Positions 51,534 through 63,486 of a stretch of DNA of 64,000 nt are shown piece after piece. This stretch comes from Erysipelotrichaceae bacterium 66202529 (GTDB taxonomy: Bacteria; Bacillota_I; Bacilli_A; Erysipelotrichales; Erysipelotrichaceae): positions 558,001 to 622,000 of the forward strand of contig CP046174.1 in the NCBI GenBank assembly GCA_017161075.1. The letters are read 5' to 3'. The translations under genes were made by a program, and so were the position numbers. Positions within the stretch are counted from its first letter, which is position 1. Each line of letters opens with the position of its first letter. A model generated the notes under the pieces. That model did not search any database, had not been told where the DNA came from, and was given only the letters and a program-made list of their open reading frames with translations.

Positions 51534-51613
51534 CTATATCTTTGTCCTATCCAGGCAGGTTTTCTCCCTCATACTATGAAATGAGGTGAGAGCCTCAGTT
51601 AGGAGGATTTTAT

Positions 51614-51868
51614 ATGAAGTATGCAAATGGAGCCTGCTGCCCCTGGTTACAGGGAGAAAAGGCTGATACAGAAGAGTATTGCTATGATGATGTGGATTTT
51701 ATGAATCTGAAGCCTGCGAAAAAACCTCAGCAGGTACAGACGCCGGGTATGGCATATGTACCGATGCAGGTATGGAAAAAACCGTATGAAATGGAGATAG
51801 GATTTCAGAGAGGGACAATCTTCCATGCTCTGGACAAACCGTTTTTAGGAGATGAGGGGGCGTGCTGA
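51614..51868 (+). CDS. cotJA: spore coat protein CotJA
   Basis: The 84-residue protein ends in the CotJA pattern MAYVPMQVWKKPYEM ... RGTIFHALDKPFLG. In Bacillus CotJA is part of the inner coat and needed for CotJC assembly. Start behind AGGAGG. A CATACTAT at 51570-51577 resembles a sigma-E -10, but no good -35 is seen. The stop overlaps the cotJB start (ATGA). Confidence 0.92.
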   Translation: MKYANGACCPWLQGEKADTEEYCYDDVDFMNLKPAKKPQQVQTPGMAYVPMQVWKKPYEMEIGFQRGTIFHALDKPFLGDEGAC

Positions 51869-52113
51869 TGAACAGAGAACGATTGTTAAGAAGACTGCAA
51901 ATACTGGATTTCGCGATTCAGGAAACAGCCTTGTTTTTAAATTCTCATCCAAAAGACAAAGATGCGATGCAGTATTATCAGAATGCTTTGCGGGAGCGTA
52001 AGAGTATCGCAGGTGATTTTGAAAGATGCTACGGCCCGTTGACGAACCGGGATAATCAAAGCGAAAGCTGGGAGTATATCAAAGGGCCATGGCCATGGGA
52101 AAGAGAGGATTAG
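51868..52113 (+). CDS. cotJB: spore coat protein CotJB
   Basis: The 81-residue protein has LLRRLQILDFAIQETALFLNSHPKDKDA and the C-terminal YGPLTNRDN ... WEYIKGPWPWE of CotJB. It belongs to the sporulation mother-cell coat operon cotJA-cotJB-cotJC. Three bases separate it from cotJC. Confidence 0.92.
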   Translation: MNRERLLRRLQILDFAIQETALFLNSHPKDKDAMQYYQNALRERKSIAGDFERCYGPLTNRDNQSESWEYIKGPWPWERED

Positions 52114-52116
52114 TCT

Positions 52117-52371
52117 ATGTGGACATATGAAAAAAAGCTGCAGTTTCCAGTGAATATCAAAAAGCCGGATCCTGCATTCGCAAAGATTGTAATTTCGCAA
52201 ATCGGAGGACCAGATGGTGAATTGGCTGCTTCCATGCGATATCTGAATCAGCGTTATGCGATGCCTTATGACAGGGTAAGAGCAATGCTGACGGATATTG
52301 GTACGGAGGAATGCGTACATAAAAGTTATCCGTCAAAAAAGCCTTTATTTATGGGAGATTTTCGGGTATAG
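52117..52371 (+). pseudogene. cotJC: cotJC, 5' part only, interrupted by prophage
   Basis: Residues 1-68 match CotJC (MWTYEKKLQFPVNIKKP; GGPDGELAASMRYLNQRYAMPYD; LTDIGTEECVH), a manganese-catalase-like coat protein normally near 190 residues. After the metal ligands Glu65 and His68 the frame runs into unrelated sequence (KSYPSKKPLFMGDF) and stops at 52371. The rest of the catalase is absent, and a phage recombinase begins there. The 3' part should lie at the other prophage end, outside the window. Confidence 0.93.
52309..52345. mobile_element. probable attL junction inside cotJC
   Basis: Homology to CotJC ends at or soon after codon 68 (52318-52320), and the recombinase stop is at 52345-52347. 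The crossover core should lie between. GTAC occurs at both 52302-52305 and 52315-52318, but I cannot fix the exact core without attR. Confidence 0.6.
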
Positions 52372-53892
52372 GTAGAGCGTGAAATTATCTGCGGTGCCGC
52401 CATCGCGTATGGAACACTCTCTTTCATACTTGACACAGCGCAGGACTTCCTTCAGCATGGAGTTCTTTTCAAGGGCACTCATATTCTCGTACTGCAGGAG
52501 AAGCTGCTCTGTCATCGGGATGATGCTGGTGGCACTTTCAATGCGTTTGTTCTCTTCTATTATTTCCTGCTGCAGTGTCTTCTGCTTCTCTTCGATTTCT
52601 GTTATTCTGGAGGATATCTTCTGAGAACGCTGCAGGAAGGTGTCCACGTCATAGATGCCTTTTTCCAGAAAGTCGTGAATGTTATCATTCTGCTTGTTCA
52701 AATCCACTGTCTCTTCCCGCAGATCAGCCAGCTGGTTCTGCAATATCTGAAGAACACTGTCGTCGATCTGTGTGTGGCCATTGCTGATTCTCAGTTTTTC
52801 TTCCTTGATATATTCTGCCAGAACTTCGATGAGCTTCTGTTCAACATCATCAAAAGGTGCACTGACATTCCTGCATTTATTGTTGGGGCAGATCAGCCCG
52901 GTTCGAATGTTTTCTCTTTGATAAGGACGTCTTTGCATCTTGGCACCGCACTTCGCACAGATCACAAGCCCTGCCAGTGGATTTTTCATTTCTCTAGCGG
53001 AGGCTGGCAGTGGTTTATGCATGGAGAATTTCTTCTGGACCTGGTCGAAGAGCTGCTGATCAACGATAGGCGGATGAATACCGTCAGCCAGCAGATAGTC
53101 ATCACTGCGGGGACGGCTTACAGATACGGAGCCGTTCTTTACTCTTTTACGCTGTCCTCTCCACCCCCAGCGGATCTTCCCAACATAGACCGGGTTCTGT
53201 AGGATATCTCTGACAGTAGGGTACACCCATTGTTTACCGGTCTTGGATGGGATCGCCATTTCGTTCAGCTGATCAGCAATGGTGGAGATGCCATGTGCTC
53301 CATATGCATACCAGCGAAACATCATCCTTACGACCTGTGCTTCCTTCTCCAGCGGCTTTAGAGTATACCCCTTGTCGTTCTCTATCTTGATACGTTCATA
53401 GCCGTATGGAGGACGGTTGCCCACATATTTGCCTTCCTTAACGGATGCCTGTCTGCCGTTGTTCAGTCTGCGTTTGATCGTCTTATATTCACGGCGGGAC
53501 ATGAAAAGTCCAAACTCAAAATACTCTTCATCGAACTCGTTGTTTGGATCGTATGTTTTAATCGGTGTGATGATCTTCGTATCGGACAGCTTGAAGGCCT
53601 GGGCTACGATGCCCTGGTCGATCGTATCACCTCTTGCAAGACGTTCTACTTCCATGACCAGTACACCATCCCATACACCCTGTTCCACTTCAGACAGAAG
53701 CTGCTGCATCATCGGTCTGGAGGCAATGGTTTCTCCAGATACGACTTCACGATAAATGTCAGCAATCGGCAGGTGCTGACGTCTGGCAAGCTCCAGGAGC
53801 GCTTTTTCATGACGGGCAAGTGTTTCTCCTTCACCACGCAGCTCCGCTTCCTGGTCAGCGCGGGACTTCCTTAGATAAATTAAATATTGCAT
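52345..53892 (-). CDS. int: large serine recombinase (prophage integrase)
   Basis: The 515-residue protein starts with the resolvase domain (LIYLRKSRAD with the nucleophile Ser10; VMEVERLARG; FGLFMSRREYKTIKRRLNNGR), then the recombinase domain (GNRPPYGYE), a zinc ribbon (CAKCGAKM ... CPNNKC) and a long coiled coil (about 395-450), as in phiC31/A118-type integrases. Its stop lies within the cotJC junction. Excision needs a directionality factor, not identified here. Start behind GGAGGTATC. Confidence 0.95.
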   Translation of the reverse strand: MQYLIYLRKSRADQEAELRGEGETLARHEKALLELARRQHLPIADIYREVVSGETIASRPMMQQLLSEVEQGVWDGVLVMEVERLARGDTIDQGIVAQAFKLSDTKIITPIKTYDPNNEFDEEYFEFGLFMSRREYKTIKRRLNNGRQASVKEGKYVGNRPPYGYERIKIENDKGYTLKPLEKEAQVVRMMFRWYAYGAHGISTIADQLNEMAIPSKTGKQWVYPTVRDILQNPVYVGKIRWGWRGQRKRVKNGSVSVSRPRSDDYLLADGIHPPIVDQQLFDQVQKKFSMHKPLPASAREMKNPLAGLVICAKCGAKMQRRPYQRENIRTGLICPNNKCRNVSAPFDDVEQKLIEVLAEYIKEEKLRISNGHTQIDDSVLQILQNQLADLREETVDLNKQNDNIHDFLEKGIYDVDTFLQRSQKISSRITEIEEKQKTLQQEIIEENKRIESATSIIPMTEQLLLQYENMSALEKNSMLKEVLRCVKYERECSIRDGGTADNFTLYLYPKISHK

Positions 53893-53905: not shown

Positions 53906-53935
53906 TTTACATTTTATGCTTAGTTGTGGTAAAAT
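53906..53935 (+). promoter_or_regulatory. promoter of the candidate phage RNA
   Basis: TTTACA at 53906-53911 and TAAAAT at 53930-53935, spacing 18 bp, divergent from the recombinase gene. Confidence 0.55.
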
Positions 53936-54927: not shown

Positions 54928-55650
54928 TTATTTAGTTGATATAACTTTTCCGATACAGATGGTATTGTTTGTAAGAGGGATATTCTTATACTTTTTATTA
55001 TGGCTAATTAAAACACCGTCACCAAGTTCTTTTACAAACGCTTCTCCATTGATCATGAAGATACCTGTCTCACCGACACATATCTCTGACTGCTTCTTTA
55101 TCAGTAGCGTATCACCATCATAGTACGTAGGTTCCATACTATCTCCATTTACACCGATAGCAAAATCCACTTGCATGTTATCCATCTCATTTTCTATTTC
55201 AATCATTTCTGGTGGGATGTCATCGAATACATATTGCCCGGTCCCGGCAGATGCCACATGGCCATAATAGGGTACTAATAAAGGGGGCTGAAGCATTATG
55301 AATTCCTTTGCTTGCTCTGTCCGCCGAGAAATAGATAATCTTTCTATAATATCATTAACTATTTTTTTATCACATTCTTCTAAACTGCGATATTTCTTTA
55401 TGTGGCTGCTTTCGCTCTCGGAAAGTTGTGCTTCAGCTTTTATTAGCTTTGTCATTTCATCTTGATAAAGATAATTTGCATCACATTTTAATGCATCAAA
55501 GAGCTTATACAATAGTTCAACTTTCGGAGAACTAACGCCATTTTCATAATTAGCAATGGCAGAAGGGGTTACTCCGATTAAGTTAGCTAGTTCGATCCGG
55601 GTTAACTTTAAATCTTCTCTTCTTTCTTTGATTCTGCTATTCAAGCTCAT
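54928..55650 (-). CDS. CI/LexA-type phage repressor
   Basis: The 240-residue protein combines an N-terminal XRE helix-turn-helix (LTRIELANLIGVTPSAIANYENGVSSPKVELLYKLFDAL) with an S24 peptidase domain: catalytic Ser in VNGDSMEPTYYDGD and Lys in INGEAFVKEL. The cleavage site is plausibly the Ala-Gly in HVASAGTG. It maintains lysogeny and would self-cleave on SOS induction. It is transcribed from the promoter at 55681-55708 and binds, by inference, the TTACAAG operators. Confidence 0.93.
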   Translation of the reverse strand: MSLNSRIKERREDLKLTRIELANLIGVTPSAIANYENGVSSPKVELLYKLFDALKCDANYLYQDEMTKLIKAEAQLSESESSHIKKYRSLEECDKKIVNDIIERLSISRRTEQAKEFIMLQPPLLVPYYGHVASAGTGQYVFDDIPPEMIEIENEMDNMQVDFAIGVNGDSMEPTYYDGDTLLIKKQSEICVGETGIFMINGEAFVKELGDGVLISHNKKYKNIPLTNNTICIGKVISTK

Positions 55651-56053: not shown

Positions 56054-56281
56054 ATGAAAGAATTCACCTACGAAACCTTAGTAAGTAATATCAAAAAATT
56101 GATATTTGAGAAAGGAATAAAACAGGGAGTAGTGGCCAAAAGAGCACATTTTACTGAGAGTGAGTTTAGCAATATGCTGAATGATAGAAGAAAGCTCATC
56201 AGGGCGGAACATCTCCCGCGGATAGCTTTTGCTCTTGGTGTTAATGTAAGCGAGCTTTTTAAAACCAGCGATTCAGATTAG
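56054..56281 (+). CDS. Cro-like XRE helix-turn-helix protein
   Basis: The 75-residue protein is almost only a helix-turn-helix (KQGVVAKRAHFTESEFSNMLNDRRKLIRAEHLPRIAFALGV). Placement as first gene of the rightward operon fits a Cro-type repressor. Start behind GGAAGGAG. A 29-bp copy of its 3' end recurs at 57182-57210. Confidence 0.82.
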   Translation: MKEFTYETLVSNIKKLIFEKGIKQGVVAKRAHFTESEFSNMLNDRRKLIRAEHLPRIAFALGVNVSELFKTSDSD

Positions 56282-57210: not shown

Positions 57211-57255
57211 AGGTCAATTCAAAAGAATACGCATACCTTATAAAGGAGGGATGTA

Positions 57256-57462
57256 ATGGATGTGACAGCAAATGTAATTGCAGATTATATGCGAGGGAAT
57301 ACCCGTATCGTTATATTGGATGATGCGATAGAACCAGAAGAGGAGCAGGAGCTCATCTATGAACGTGTCAGAGGTATCATCACAAGATCGCGTCTGCGTA
57401 GACAAAAAGAAAAGGATGCTCACCCCGTCGAAAGTGCAGCATCCAAACTCAAACCCTTATAA
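57256..57462 (+). CDS. phage protein, 68 aa, unknown
   Basis: Start behind AAAGGAGGG. An acidic middle (EPEEEQELIYERV) is followed by a basic segment (RSRLRRQKEKD). Helical, no known motif. Confidence 0.6.
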   Translation: MDVTANVIADYMRGNTRIVILDDAIEPEEEQELIYERVRGIITRSRLRRQKEKDAHPVESAASKLKPL

Positions 57463-60819: not shown

Positions 60820-60866
60820 TACAATAATACGATTAGTAATGAATAAGAAAGTTGAGGAAAATAAAT

Positions 60867-61505
60867 ATGACAAGTAATGGACAATTAAATACAAAGGTGA
60901 AGACAGGTGAAGTGAGATTATCTTATTGTCACTTGTTCGAACCACATGCATTCGATGAAGGGCAGGAAGCTAAGTATTCTGTGCAGATCATCTTTGATAA
61001 GAATGATAAAGTAACTGCTGGATTTATCAGCCAAGCTTATAAGAACGCAAAGCAGAACGGTATCAACAAATTCGGTCAGAAATTTGGTCAGTTGGTCAAT
61101 GATCTGATGTGTAAGCCTGGTGACAAGACCGGACTTGTGCGTGATGGAGATACTGATCCTCGATATAGTGATGACAAAGATACATATGCAGGAAAATACA
61201 TTATGAATTGTAAGTGTTCTACGGCTCCCGGTGTATACACAAAAGAGACTGGTACAAGGAAGTTAACTTTGCAGGATCAGGAACTTGTCTACTCCGGCTG
61301 CTATGGGAAAGTGACCTTTAATCTTTATCCATATAGTAAAGCAGGGAATACCGGCATCGGTGTTGGATTGAACAATGTATTGAAGACAAGAGACGGTGAT
61401 AATCTCGGAGGTCGTGTATCTGGTGAAGTTGATTTCGCCGATGAATTTAAAGATGAGAGCAGCTTTCCGGGTTTCAATGATGCCGAAGACGATCTGTTAG
61501 GTTAG
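60867..61505 (+). CDS. DUF2815 protein, probable ssDNA-binding protein
   Basis: The 212-residue protein has the DUF2815 start (KVKTGEVRLSYCHLFEPHAFDEGQEAKYSVQIIF) and an OB-fold-like beta core, with an acidic C-terminus (FNDAEDDLLG) typical of ssDNA-binding proteins that recruit partners. ATG 60867 behind TGAGGAAA. Sits between DUF2800 and the DNA polymerase. Confidence 0.9.
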   Translation: MTSNGQLNTKVKTGEVRLSYCHLFEPHAFDEGQEAKYSVQIIFDKNDKVTAGFISQAYKNAKQNGINKFGQKFGQLVNDLMCKPGDKTGLVRDGDTDPRYSDDKDTYAGKYIMNCKCSTAPGVYTKETGTRKLTLQDQELVYSGCYGKVTFNLYPYSKAGNTGIGVGLNNVLKTRDGDNLGGRVSGEVDFADEFKDESSFPGFNDAEDDLLG

Positions 61506-61509
61506 CCTC

Positions 61510-63486
61510 ATGAAAACACTGCATATCGATCTGGAAACCTATAGCTCGATTGACCTTAATTCATGTGGTGTATATAAATATGTAGAGAGCGAGGACTTTG
61601 AAATCCTCCTCTTTGCTTATGCGATCGACGATCAGCCCGTCAGAGTGATTGATCTGGTGTCGGGAGATATCATCCCCCTGCCGATTCAGGTGCTGATTAG
61701 AGATCCTTCCATCATCAAGTGCGCACATAATGCAGCATTCGAGCGACTGTGCCTGTCCAAACACTTAAGCGAGCATTTCACTGCAGATCAATGGCATTGT
61801 TCAATGGTGCACGCTTCCATGCTCGGTATGCCTGCATCATTGAAGGACGTAGGCATCGTACTGGGGCTGGACGAAGATAAGCAGAAGCTTCGTACAGGAA
61901 CAGCCTTGATCAGTTATTTCTGCAAACCCTGTAAACCGACCAGAACGAATGGACAAAGAACAAGAAACCTTCCTCGTCATGCGCCTGAGAAATGGCGGCT
62001 GTTCAAGGAATACTGTCAGCGAGATGTAGAAACAGAACGTGAGATCAGCTATAAGCTTGACAAGTTTCCAATACCAAAGGAAGAGCAGGAACTGTGGTGC
62101 TGGGATCAGAGAATGAATGATTATGGGGCAAGGATCGATACCGAGCTTGTAAAAAACGTACTTAAGTTTGGCATGAAAAAAGACGAGCAGATGAAAGATG
62201 AATGCATCCGCATCACAGGAGGGATCAATCTGAACAGCGTAATTCAGCTGAAGGAATGGATAGGAAACAGAGAGAACCGAGTAGTAGATAAACTGGACAA
62301 GGATGCAGTCAAAGAGCTCCTGCAGGATGAAACGCTTTCCAGTGAAACAAGGAGACTTCTGCATCTGAGACAGGAAGCAGGTAAGACCTCAGTAAAGAAA
62401 TATGATGCAATTGTCAGAGCGATATGTAAAGATGACCGATTGCATGGAATCTTCCGCTTCTACGGAGCAAATCGGACAGGGCGCTGGGCAGGACGTATCT
62501 TTCAGCCTCAGAACCTTCCTAGAAATGCTTTCGATGATATCGAATTGGCAAGACAGCTGGTCAAGGAAAAAGATTTTGAAACAATAGATATGCTGTACGG
62601 ATCCTATAATCAGGTATTCAGCACTCTGATCAGAACGGCAGTTATTCCGCCTGATGGACATATGTTTGCTGTAGCAGATTATTCAGCTATCGAGGCAAGG
62701 CTCACTGCATGGTTTTGTAATGAAAAATGGAGACAGGATGTATTTGCTTCAACAGGAAAGATCTATGAAGCTTCGGCTGCACAGATGTTTCATGTACCAG
62801 TCGAACAGGTCACGAAAGGCTCTGACCTGCGTAAGAAGGGGAAAGTGGCGGAGTTGGCACTGGGCTATGGCGGAGGTGTATCTGCACTGGAACGTATGGG
62901 AGGCGCGTCTATGGGACTATCGGAAGAGGAGATGCAGGATATCGTACATAAATGGAGATTAGCATCTCCAAATATCAAGAAGATGTGGTATCAGGTTCAG
63001 GATGCAGCCTATTCGGCTGTGAGAGACCGAAGAAGAGTACAAGTGGCACATGGTGTGAGTTACTTTTATCAATCGGGTGTCCTCTTTGCGCAGCTGCCAT
63101 CCGGTCGAAAGTTGGCATATATCAGGCCTAAACTCGTACCAGGCAAGTATGGAGAAGAACTCACCTATGAAGGATATGGATCTGATCAGGATGGTAAACA
63201 AACAAAAAAGTGGTGCCGGCAGAAGACATGGGGCGGCAAACTGTTCGAGAACCTTATCCAGGCCATTGCACGTGACTGTCTGGCAACAGCGATGCTGCGC
63301 CTTGATCAGCAAGGCTATAGGATAGTTATGCATGTGCATGATGAGGTAGTCGTGGAGGTGCCTAAGGAGAATGCTCGTGCCGCTTTAGAGGAAATAGAGA
63401 GTATCATGGCAGAGCCGTTGAGCTGGGCACCGGGTGCTATACTTACGGCTGACGGATTCGTCAGTGAGTATTACAGAAAAGATTAA
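61510..63486 (+). CDS. phage family A DNA polymerase
   Basis: The 658-residue protein has an N-terminal 3'-5' exonuclease (LHIDLETYSSIDL; HNAAFERLCL) and the polymerase motifs A (AVADYSAIEARLTAWF), B (KKGKVAELALGYGGG) and C (VMHVHDEVVVEV). It replicates the phage genome. The 5' nuclease domain of bacterial Pol I is missing, as usual for phage enzymes. Confidence 0.96.
   Translation: MKTLHIDLETYSSIDLNSCGVYKYVESEDFEILLFAYAIDDQPVRVIDLVSGDIIPLPIQVLIRDPSIIKCAHNAAFERLCLSKHLSEHFTADQWHCSMVHASMLGMPASLKDVGIVLGLDEDKQKLRTGTALISYFCKPCKPTRTNGQRTRNLPRHAPEKWRLFKEYCQRDVETEREISYKLDKFPIPKEEQELWCWDQRMNDYGARIDTELVKNVLKFGMKKDEQMKDECIRITGGINLNSVIQLKEWIGNRENRVVDKLDKDAVKELLQDETLSSETRRLLHLRQEAGKTSVKKYDAIVRAICKDDRLHGIFRFYGANRTGRWAGRIFQPQNLPRNAFDDIELARQLVKEKDFETIDMLYGSYNQVFSTLIRTAVIPPDGHMFAVADYSAIEARLTAWFCNEKWRQDVFASTGKIYEASAAQMFHVPVEQVTKGSDLRKKGKVAELALGYGGGVSALERMGGASMGLSEEEMQDIVHKWRLASPNIKKMWYQVQDAAYSAVRDRRRVQVAHGVSYFYQSGVLFAQLPSGRKLAYIRPKLVPGKYGEELTYEGYGSDQDGKQTKKWCRQKTWGGKLFENLIQAIARDCLATAMLRLDQQGYRIVMHVHDEVVVEVPKENARAALEEIESIMAEPLSWAPGAILTADGFVSEYYRKD

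Follow-up and report, generated by a model that had tools for sequence, protein, structure and literature searches.

This locus raises the question of whether a prophage that cuts into a spore coat gene has simply broken it, or is an element that leaves the chromosome during sporulation and thereby rebuilds the gene. The original prediction favoured the latter, likening the arrangement to the skin element in sigK and to SP-beta in spsM. In the stretch of DNA analysed (the window, 64,000 nucleotides in full), the following features bear on the answer:

51570-51577, plus strand: CATACTAT, candidate sigma-E-like -10 upstream of cotJA
51614-51868, plus strand: cotJA, intact (Pfam PF11007 CotJA, whole 35-position profile, E 8e-16)
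51862-52113, plus strand: cotJB, intact (Pfam PF12652 CotJB, 2-76 of 76, E 4e-25)
52117-52311, plus strand: cotJC 5' part, codons 1-65, MWTYEKKL...LTDIGTEE (Pfam PF05067 Mn_catalase 1-69 of 284, E 2e-21)
52309-52310, plus strand: putative crossover dinucleotide GA in the Glu65 codon, centre of attL, from comparison of the halves in relatives
52311-52334, plus strand: phage arm of attL, ATGCGTACATAAAAGTTATCCGTC, with a mirror image at the far end of the sister phage G002
52345-53892, minus strand: large serine recombinase (integrase), 515 aa, with Resolvase, Recombinase and Zn-ribbon domains (PHROG 95 'integrase', E 3e-99)
53915-53918, minus strand: CATA of CATAAAAT, candidate sigma-E-like -10 just upstream of the integrase RBS
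54928-55650, minus strand: S24-type phage repressor, HTH plus peptidase S24 (profile match)
56054-56281, plus strand: Cro/C1-type HTH regulator (profile match)
57232-57240, plus strand: CATACCTTA, candidate sigma-E/K-like -10 before the RBS of the candidate RDF, with a near-identical copy in the phage G001
57256-57462, plus strand: candidate recombination directionality factor (RDF), 68 aa, acidic, named for the co-occurrence of its family with the integrase
60852-61505, plus strand: Enc34-type ssDNA-binding protein of a phage replication module (profile match)
61510-63486, plus strand: phage DNA polymerase A (profile match)

The near-complete profile matches of cotJA and cotJB bear out the expectation that both are intact. 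The element lies within the coding region of a sporulation gene, as do the known sporulation gene-intervening elements (skin, SP-beta, vfbin, gin and yin), the 5' half of cotJC meeting phage DNA at codon 65; the Mn-catalase profile is conserved in this part, and residues 1-65 share 68-69% identity with two uninterrupted CotJC proteins. The break had been placed after residue 68, with the ligand His68 retained, and neither position was upheld, as CotJC homology stops inside the Glu65 codon and residues 66-84 of the open frame (the 'CVHKSYP...' tail) are attachment arm and phage DNA. The site-specific serine recombinase encoded by the element does stand at the junction, as had been noted, whereas it does not start there: it lies on the minus strand, so that its 3' end (52345) and not its start codon (53892) faces cotJC. 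The window is best read as showing the left junction of a temperate phage whose own large serine integrase placed it in the Glu65 codon of cotJC. The closest phage DNA in a nucleotide search was a single record (75.9% over 342 bases). No second CotJC match was found within the window; the right end of the element lies outside it, and for this strain we infer it.

Two phages in IMG/VR, G001 (40,067 bp) and G002 (38,628 bp), carry integrases 99% and 98% identical to that of the window, respectively. Read in the orientation of cotJC, the far end of G002 is GACGGATAACTTTTAGGTACTCAC-GA-GCTTGCTCATCTGGAA (host side TCAC-GA-GCTTGCTCATCTGGAA), while the window junction is ...GGTACGGAG-GA-ATGCGTACATAAAAGTTATCCGTC. 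Joined to each other, the host parts of the window and of G002 give MLTDIGTEELAHLE, which is in frame (...GTEE-LAHLE), and the halves found in relatives meet at the same codon, 65. The halves of relatives and the arms centred on GA thus show that a break at residue 68 is wrong, that the crossover falls within the Glu65 codon and that the apparent His68 is phage DNA. A different target in G002, whose right end GTACTCACGAG... looked out of frame with the window, was considered and rejected, the discrepancy being resolved by a core at GA and not at GTAC.

The phage arms of the window and G002 mirror each other about GA at 21 of the 30 positions compared (six of them undetermined bases), and in 13 of 14 arm pairs the mirror match was best at zero shift about GA (a shift of 3 in the remaining pair, L125). 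True arm pairs score 12-21 of 30 and mismatched pairings have a mean of 13.2 and a maximum of 21; since five true pairs (L087, L119, L122, L125 and L147) score 12-14, the level of mismatched pairs, the arms alone are modest evidence. The arms of the window and its sister, together with attP-like sites in relatives, have the form of a large-serine-integrase attP, of about 50 bp with mirror-image arms and a 2-bp core. Among the 58 loci with no cotJC half close to the integrase, 10 have such a site with a GA centre (L003, L005 and L041 represent one phage); other centres exist as well, for example TT in L051, L054 and L060. In L006-L009 and L036, whose integrases are 88-95% identical to that of L003, the site is split at the GA of L003 beside a cotJC 3' half. 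Used as search patterns, the left arm matched G002 only and the right arm ten contigs, G001 among them. The contigs of L001 (the end of G001) and L004 stop exactly at the GA core, which might reflect mixed integrated and excised forms or chance trimming.

That the insertion is precise and reversible in frame is, as a matter of geometry read from these sequences, nearly certain. Integration would join attP and attB at the central GA, and recombination between attL and attR would then return the codon and restore cotJC. The integrase by itself would integrate, and the small acidic phage protein at 57256-57462 would be the probable directionality factor that switches it to excision.

The recurrence of this arrangement was surveyed with one integrase query, which gave 147 fetched loci (67 viral loci plus the best 80 of 144 genome loci, several of them near-duplicates) with integrases 38-99% identical to that of the window. 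In this set, which on the genome side holds the best 80 of 144, a cotJC half lay within 1.6 kb of the integrase 3' end in 64 of the 147 loci (45 with the 3' half and 19 with the 5' half); seven others had the core motif only, 18 were cut by a contig end and 58 had none, a class that includes L144 and L147, which carry cotJC halves farther from the integrase. On these counts, a cotJC half at the integrase is more than chance. The element was found in both orientations, and a CotJB match was obtained in two of the five loci tried. In an alignment of the relatives (103 rows), CotJC similarity ends (5' pieces) or begins (3' pieces) at codon 65; five rows are without GA there, namely L073, the second-piece rows of L095 and L105, L081 (a register slip) and L128 (a frameshift), and one row of L138 is a piece from another part of cotJC. 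As GA belongs to any Glu codon, the telling point is where the similarity stops and not the letters. A query of viral contigs with the 5' half gave ten further loci, six of which stop at codon 65 and four of which (L162-L165) run through it. That removable elements interrupt cotJC at a few fixed points in many spore-forming relatives suggests that these bacteria excise DNA to rebuild it as they form a spore.

A rival reading is that cotJC is broken and decaying, with the prophage stranded in it. In its favour, residues 1-65 by themselves make up about a third of the protein, the right end in the window strain lies beyond the window, and four cotJC genes of one other family have frame breaks. 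Evidence on this point came from dN/dS. The input retained 38 5' halves and 78 3' halves; the rows removed were 28 short 3' ones and, for stops, length or a different cut site, five 5' ones (L128 included), and uninterrupted or duplicate loci were partly left out of the pairs. Ratios for the 5' halves were 0.08-0.17 within the group of small elements and 0.08-0.31 over all 29 pairs; those for the 3' halves (71 rows, many of them the same genome twice) were 0.03-0.24 within groups and up to 0.42 in pairs with L026, L058 or L182. By these ratios the cotJC halves are under purifying selection, including those at elements of 3-10 kb whose scanned cargo is not phage-like. With the halves mostly open and selected across species, and the right junction of the sister phage exact, plain inactivation is very improbable.

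Synonymous distances show less about how long element and gene have travelled together. In the group L119-L151, dS was 0.38-1.28 for the integrase (one pair identical) and 0.49-1.44 for the 5' halves; both approach saturation, and the data are therefore no more than consistent with element and gene having been inherited together. A later or horizontal insertion is indicated for L079/L080 (integrase 0.03, cotJC 0.54) and for L128/L133 (integrase 0.38, cotJC 1.09, over 44 codons, some beyond a further cut), because their integrases are less diverged than cotJC.

Whole genomes were searched for uninterrupted copies in 40 cases, taken from the best 80 of 144 genome loci and picked for a cotJC half or motif in the locus. 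Eight of them also have an uninterrupted Mn-catalase gene, 31 have pieces only and in one (G023) the copy is contiguous but carries a frame break, so that an uninterrupted copy is absent in 32 of the 40, counting G023. A family-wide draw took 120 genomes from the family of Blautia parvula (G033), of which 79 have the Mn-catalase profile; by a reading of the table by eye, 44 have uninterrupted genes only, 23 are split with both sides seen and without an uninterrupted copy, six have split and uninterrupted genes, four have a single piece ending at a site and two (G073, G117) are ambiguous. Split copies were thus read in 29 of the 79 catalase-bearing genomes, three of which (G033, G014 and G034) were known as split before the draw; the DNA at the break was read for eight of the 23 split genomes (G053, G059, G060, G068, G119, G140, G165 and G167), the others being taken from the table. 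The profile occurs in 54 of 59 genomes from the family of G044: an uninterrupted gene is present in 24 (three of which also have a stray piece), 15 are split into at least two pieces without an uninterrupted copy (G031, G044, G047 and G049 known earlier), and 15 others have single pieces, frame breaks or other Mn-catalases.

These surveys bear on a second explanation, that of an ordinary prophage for which cotJC is a convenient target, the gene being dispensable and excision occurring at random or on phage induction, with no developmental control. Active-site codons conserved across species would make a good phage target, and related integrases occur in phage records (Dorea phage DO134P1 44%, THSA-485A 44%, phiIBB_P123 47%). 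Dispensability has a parallel in the C. difficile cotCB and cotD mutants, which are described in the excerpted text of PMC11222575 as having lost catalase activity without a significant coat defect. The 44 genomes with uninterrupted genes only and the six with both kinds likewise count against a developmental role. On the other side, 23 of the 79 genomes gave no uninterrupted copy, and cotJC halves are conserved. Three further observations, set out below, speak against an ordinary prophage: small elements without phage-like scanned cargo retain the integrase and the candidate RDF, mother-cell-type motifs are enriched before the RDF gene, and one relative sits at sigK. We consider an ordinary prophage unlikely.

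The candidate RDF belongs to a family of acidic proteins of about 50 aa that an iterated profile found in 105 of the 147 integrase loci (genome part, best 80 of 144) and did not find in the other 42, several of which are on short contigs; this co-occurrence makes it the candidate directionality factor. It gave no significant match to Pfam or PHROG, no credible relative among solved structures and no sequence relation to SprB, and the family was not matched in the stretches from other cut sites (L197-L209, L211-L214 and L216, which are parts of elements only) or in L215, a Glu65-site element with an integrase 35% identical to that of the window. The small elements, of 3-10 kb, carry the integrase, the acidic protein of about 50 aa and differing cargo; they measure 3.3 kb in L108, 4-5 kb in L119, L128, L139 and L151, 6 kb in L147 and about 10 kb in L122 and L144. 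Ten cargo proteins from five of them gave no phage-family match, one giving no match at all, and those scanned include AAA/RloB, aldo-keto reductase and two-component genes. The AAA ATPase and RloB-like pair in the cotJC element of L128 is possibly a defence module, and L147 has similar-looking reading frames.

The upstream regions of the small-protein genes were thinned to 86 and compared with other genes of the same loci, CATA being counted after it had been noticed there. At positions -36 to -12, CATA preceded 53 of 86 candidate RDF genes and 134 of 1137 control genes (P=6e-25); 33 of the 86 are without it, and it was found upstream of 30 of 111 integrase genes. A box of the form [AT][AT]AGGACA[AG] or GTACAA was present before 26 of 86 candidate RDF genes and 22 of 1137 controls (P=2e-19), while the plain SpoIIID consensus was less marked (20/86 and 107/1137). 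In a motif-free count, the top enriched 5-mers in these windows were GCATA (30/86 and 31/1137) and TAGGA/GTACA. Over the 60 regions that have CATA within a slightly wider window, ACAA stood before CATA by 11 nt in 16, 12 nt in five, 13 nt in four and 17 nt in seven. In the window itself, motifs of the CATA type stand upstream of cotJA, of the integrase and of the small protein, the gene of the latter having no clean SpoIIID-like box. The motifs are named sigma-E/K and SpoIIID after the respective consensus sequences, as is the sigma-E-like candidate CATACTAT at 51570-51577. A promoter specific to cotJC carriers was rejected, CATA being no commoner in cotJC-adjacent loci (27/49) than in those with none seen (16/30) or cut off (9/12). 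A mother-cell sporulation promoter, of the sigma-E type and often with a SpoIIID-like box in relatives, would probably drive the small protein, in which case excision and the rebuilding of cotJC would fall in the terminal mother cell and the spore chromosome would retain the prophage.

The related integrases are also found at other genes. In L117 the integrase adjoins the 3' part of an asparagine synthase gene (NCBIfam), six other loci (L029, L088, L130, L134, L137 and L140) being similar by eye, and in five (L135, L143, L145, L146 and L155) it adjoins a LysM-containing protein read as a YaaH/SleL-like spore hydrolase; of three LysM neighbours scanned, two matched spore-protein LysM models weakly, short of the curated cut-off, and one (L155) gave no match. 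YaaH/SleL and an asparagine synthase both belong to the sporulation programme. The asparagine synthase 3' part beside those integrases begins near DEIFGGYPW. In L039 an integrase of the same family adjoins the 5' part of sigK (SigK profile 2-147 of 227), a skin-type arrangement, while the neighbour in L120 is V-type-ATPase-like by eye and other loci have unidentified neighbours. In an integrase tree of 81 labelled tips (13 labelled by neighbour gene, three set as cotJC by hand), the asparagine synthase and LysM groups each form a monophyletic clade (support 0.998 and 0.999) nested among the cotJC users under midpoint rooting, on a weak backbone with support down to 0.06.

Comparison supports the likeness to skin and SP-beta, given the insertion within a codon, the frame-restoring junction of G002, the relation to YokA, the locus at sigK, the candidate RDF with mother-cell-type motifs and the conserved halves without an uninterrupted copy; the prediction went astray on the position of the break and the orientation of the recombinase. 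The YokA integrase of SP-beta is the closest solved chain to the window integrase (E 3e-56). SP-beta is likewise a temperate phage in a spore-envelope gene, spsM of B. subtilis, with a large serine integrase and a small RDF (SprA/SprB; excerpts of PMC4191935), and sprB has a similar upstream motif, GACAA...CATACATA; it differs in its target gene, in its integrase (that of SPBc2 is 28.9% identical) and in its SprB, unrelated in sequence to the candidate RDF. The C. difficile skin element in sigK is excised in the mother cell, and sigma-E and SpoIIID reportedly control its RDF, CD1234 (excerpts of PMC5025042), with the L039 integrase of the window family beside a sigK 5' part as its counterpart here; its target is a sigma factor, whereas here it is a coat enzyme, in many species and at several sites in one gene. 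The excerpted texts of PMC5595907 and PMC10747680 describe gin, with gerE as its target, and yin, with yabG, as gene-intervening elements, with a serine recombinase and a small factor, one of them non-phage; their target genes are others, and yin is reported there as unique to one strain.

The closest precedent for the target is C. difficile phi027, likewise a prophage at a cotJC-type gene (CDR20291_1465/cotG). In the excerpts of PMC11222575 and PMC12122855 it lies beside the cotJC homologue, a 678-bp gene downstream of attR, and an interruption is not described. The prediction that cotJC is not a described target holds in the literature searched, where no report of an interrupted cotJC was found (preprints and most subscription journals being outside its scope) and the nearest reports put phi027 beside the gene and not inside it. 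A paper on sporulation genes in gut phages (PMC10294663) has no 'cotJ' in its text, and a survey of large integrases (PMC10083194) analysed target-gene families, and its supplements may list Mn-catalase.

We read the window element as skin/SP-beta-like and as one member of a wide system that acts on this coat gene at several sites. Probably it is also excised as skin and SP-beta are, in the mother cell, to rebuild the gene of the coat catalase, sporulation excision being drawn from the junctions, motifs and conserved halves; mother-cell excision of the cotJC element as such is graded likely on the same sequence evidence. A version of this, which does not exclude it, is that excision serves the phage, restoring host spore fitness as phage DNA leaves a dying cell, with no regulatory benefit to the host. 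Carriers such as G001 and G002, phages of 38.6-40 kb, fit it, and attP-like sites on contigs suggest free forms, whereas the persistence in some genomes of small elements carrying non-phage cargo speaks against it; we regard it as possible, on the lesser side of an even chance.

Pieces of cotJC end at about Gly30-Pro32, at Asp60-Gly62 (two loci read), at Glu65, at residues 95-109 and at the GA of Glu136; both of these Glu residues are metal ligands. The integrases at the Gly30-Pro32, Asp60-Gly62 and Glu136 sites are merely 22-27% identical to that of the window. In G032, G017 and G037 the pieces imply three breaks, partly across separate contigs, G017 also having an uninterrupted copy. On balance, we lean slightly towards cotJC being a gene in pieces across spore-forming Clostridia and relatives, with distinct serine-integrase families at several fixed places, two or three mother-cell excisions in some lineages, and elements domesticated long ago of which integrase, directionality factor and cargo are left. 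If mother-cell excision is true, programmed DNA rearrangement in sporulation would be widespread in spore-forming Clostridia and their relatives, of which many live in the gut, with one coat gene, cotJC, as a main stage for it, and genome annotations may often give a coat enzyme as truncated or absent. The integrase, its small partner protein and 50-bp sites with a known core would offer a ready system in which to study what draws phages to mother-cell genes, with many natural integrase/RDF pairs to choose from.

Two minor observations concern the gene itself. G519 apparently has two differently split cotJC copies (1-37 + 33-197, and 1-66 + 59-156 + 149-197). In L235, L236, L237 and L128 (G481, G490, G500 and G044, of one AT-rich family), cotJC has a +1 frame break exactly at CGG, in the contexts CTT-CGG-ACA, ATT-CGG-AAC, GAC-CGG-AGA and ATA-CGG-AAC. 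CGG is nearly absent as a codon in that family (7 occurrences in long reading frames that total about 43,000 codons, from 13 loci, some of them near-duplicates), and the breaks may be a +1 frameshift site, an unassigned codon or an assembly error.
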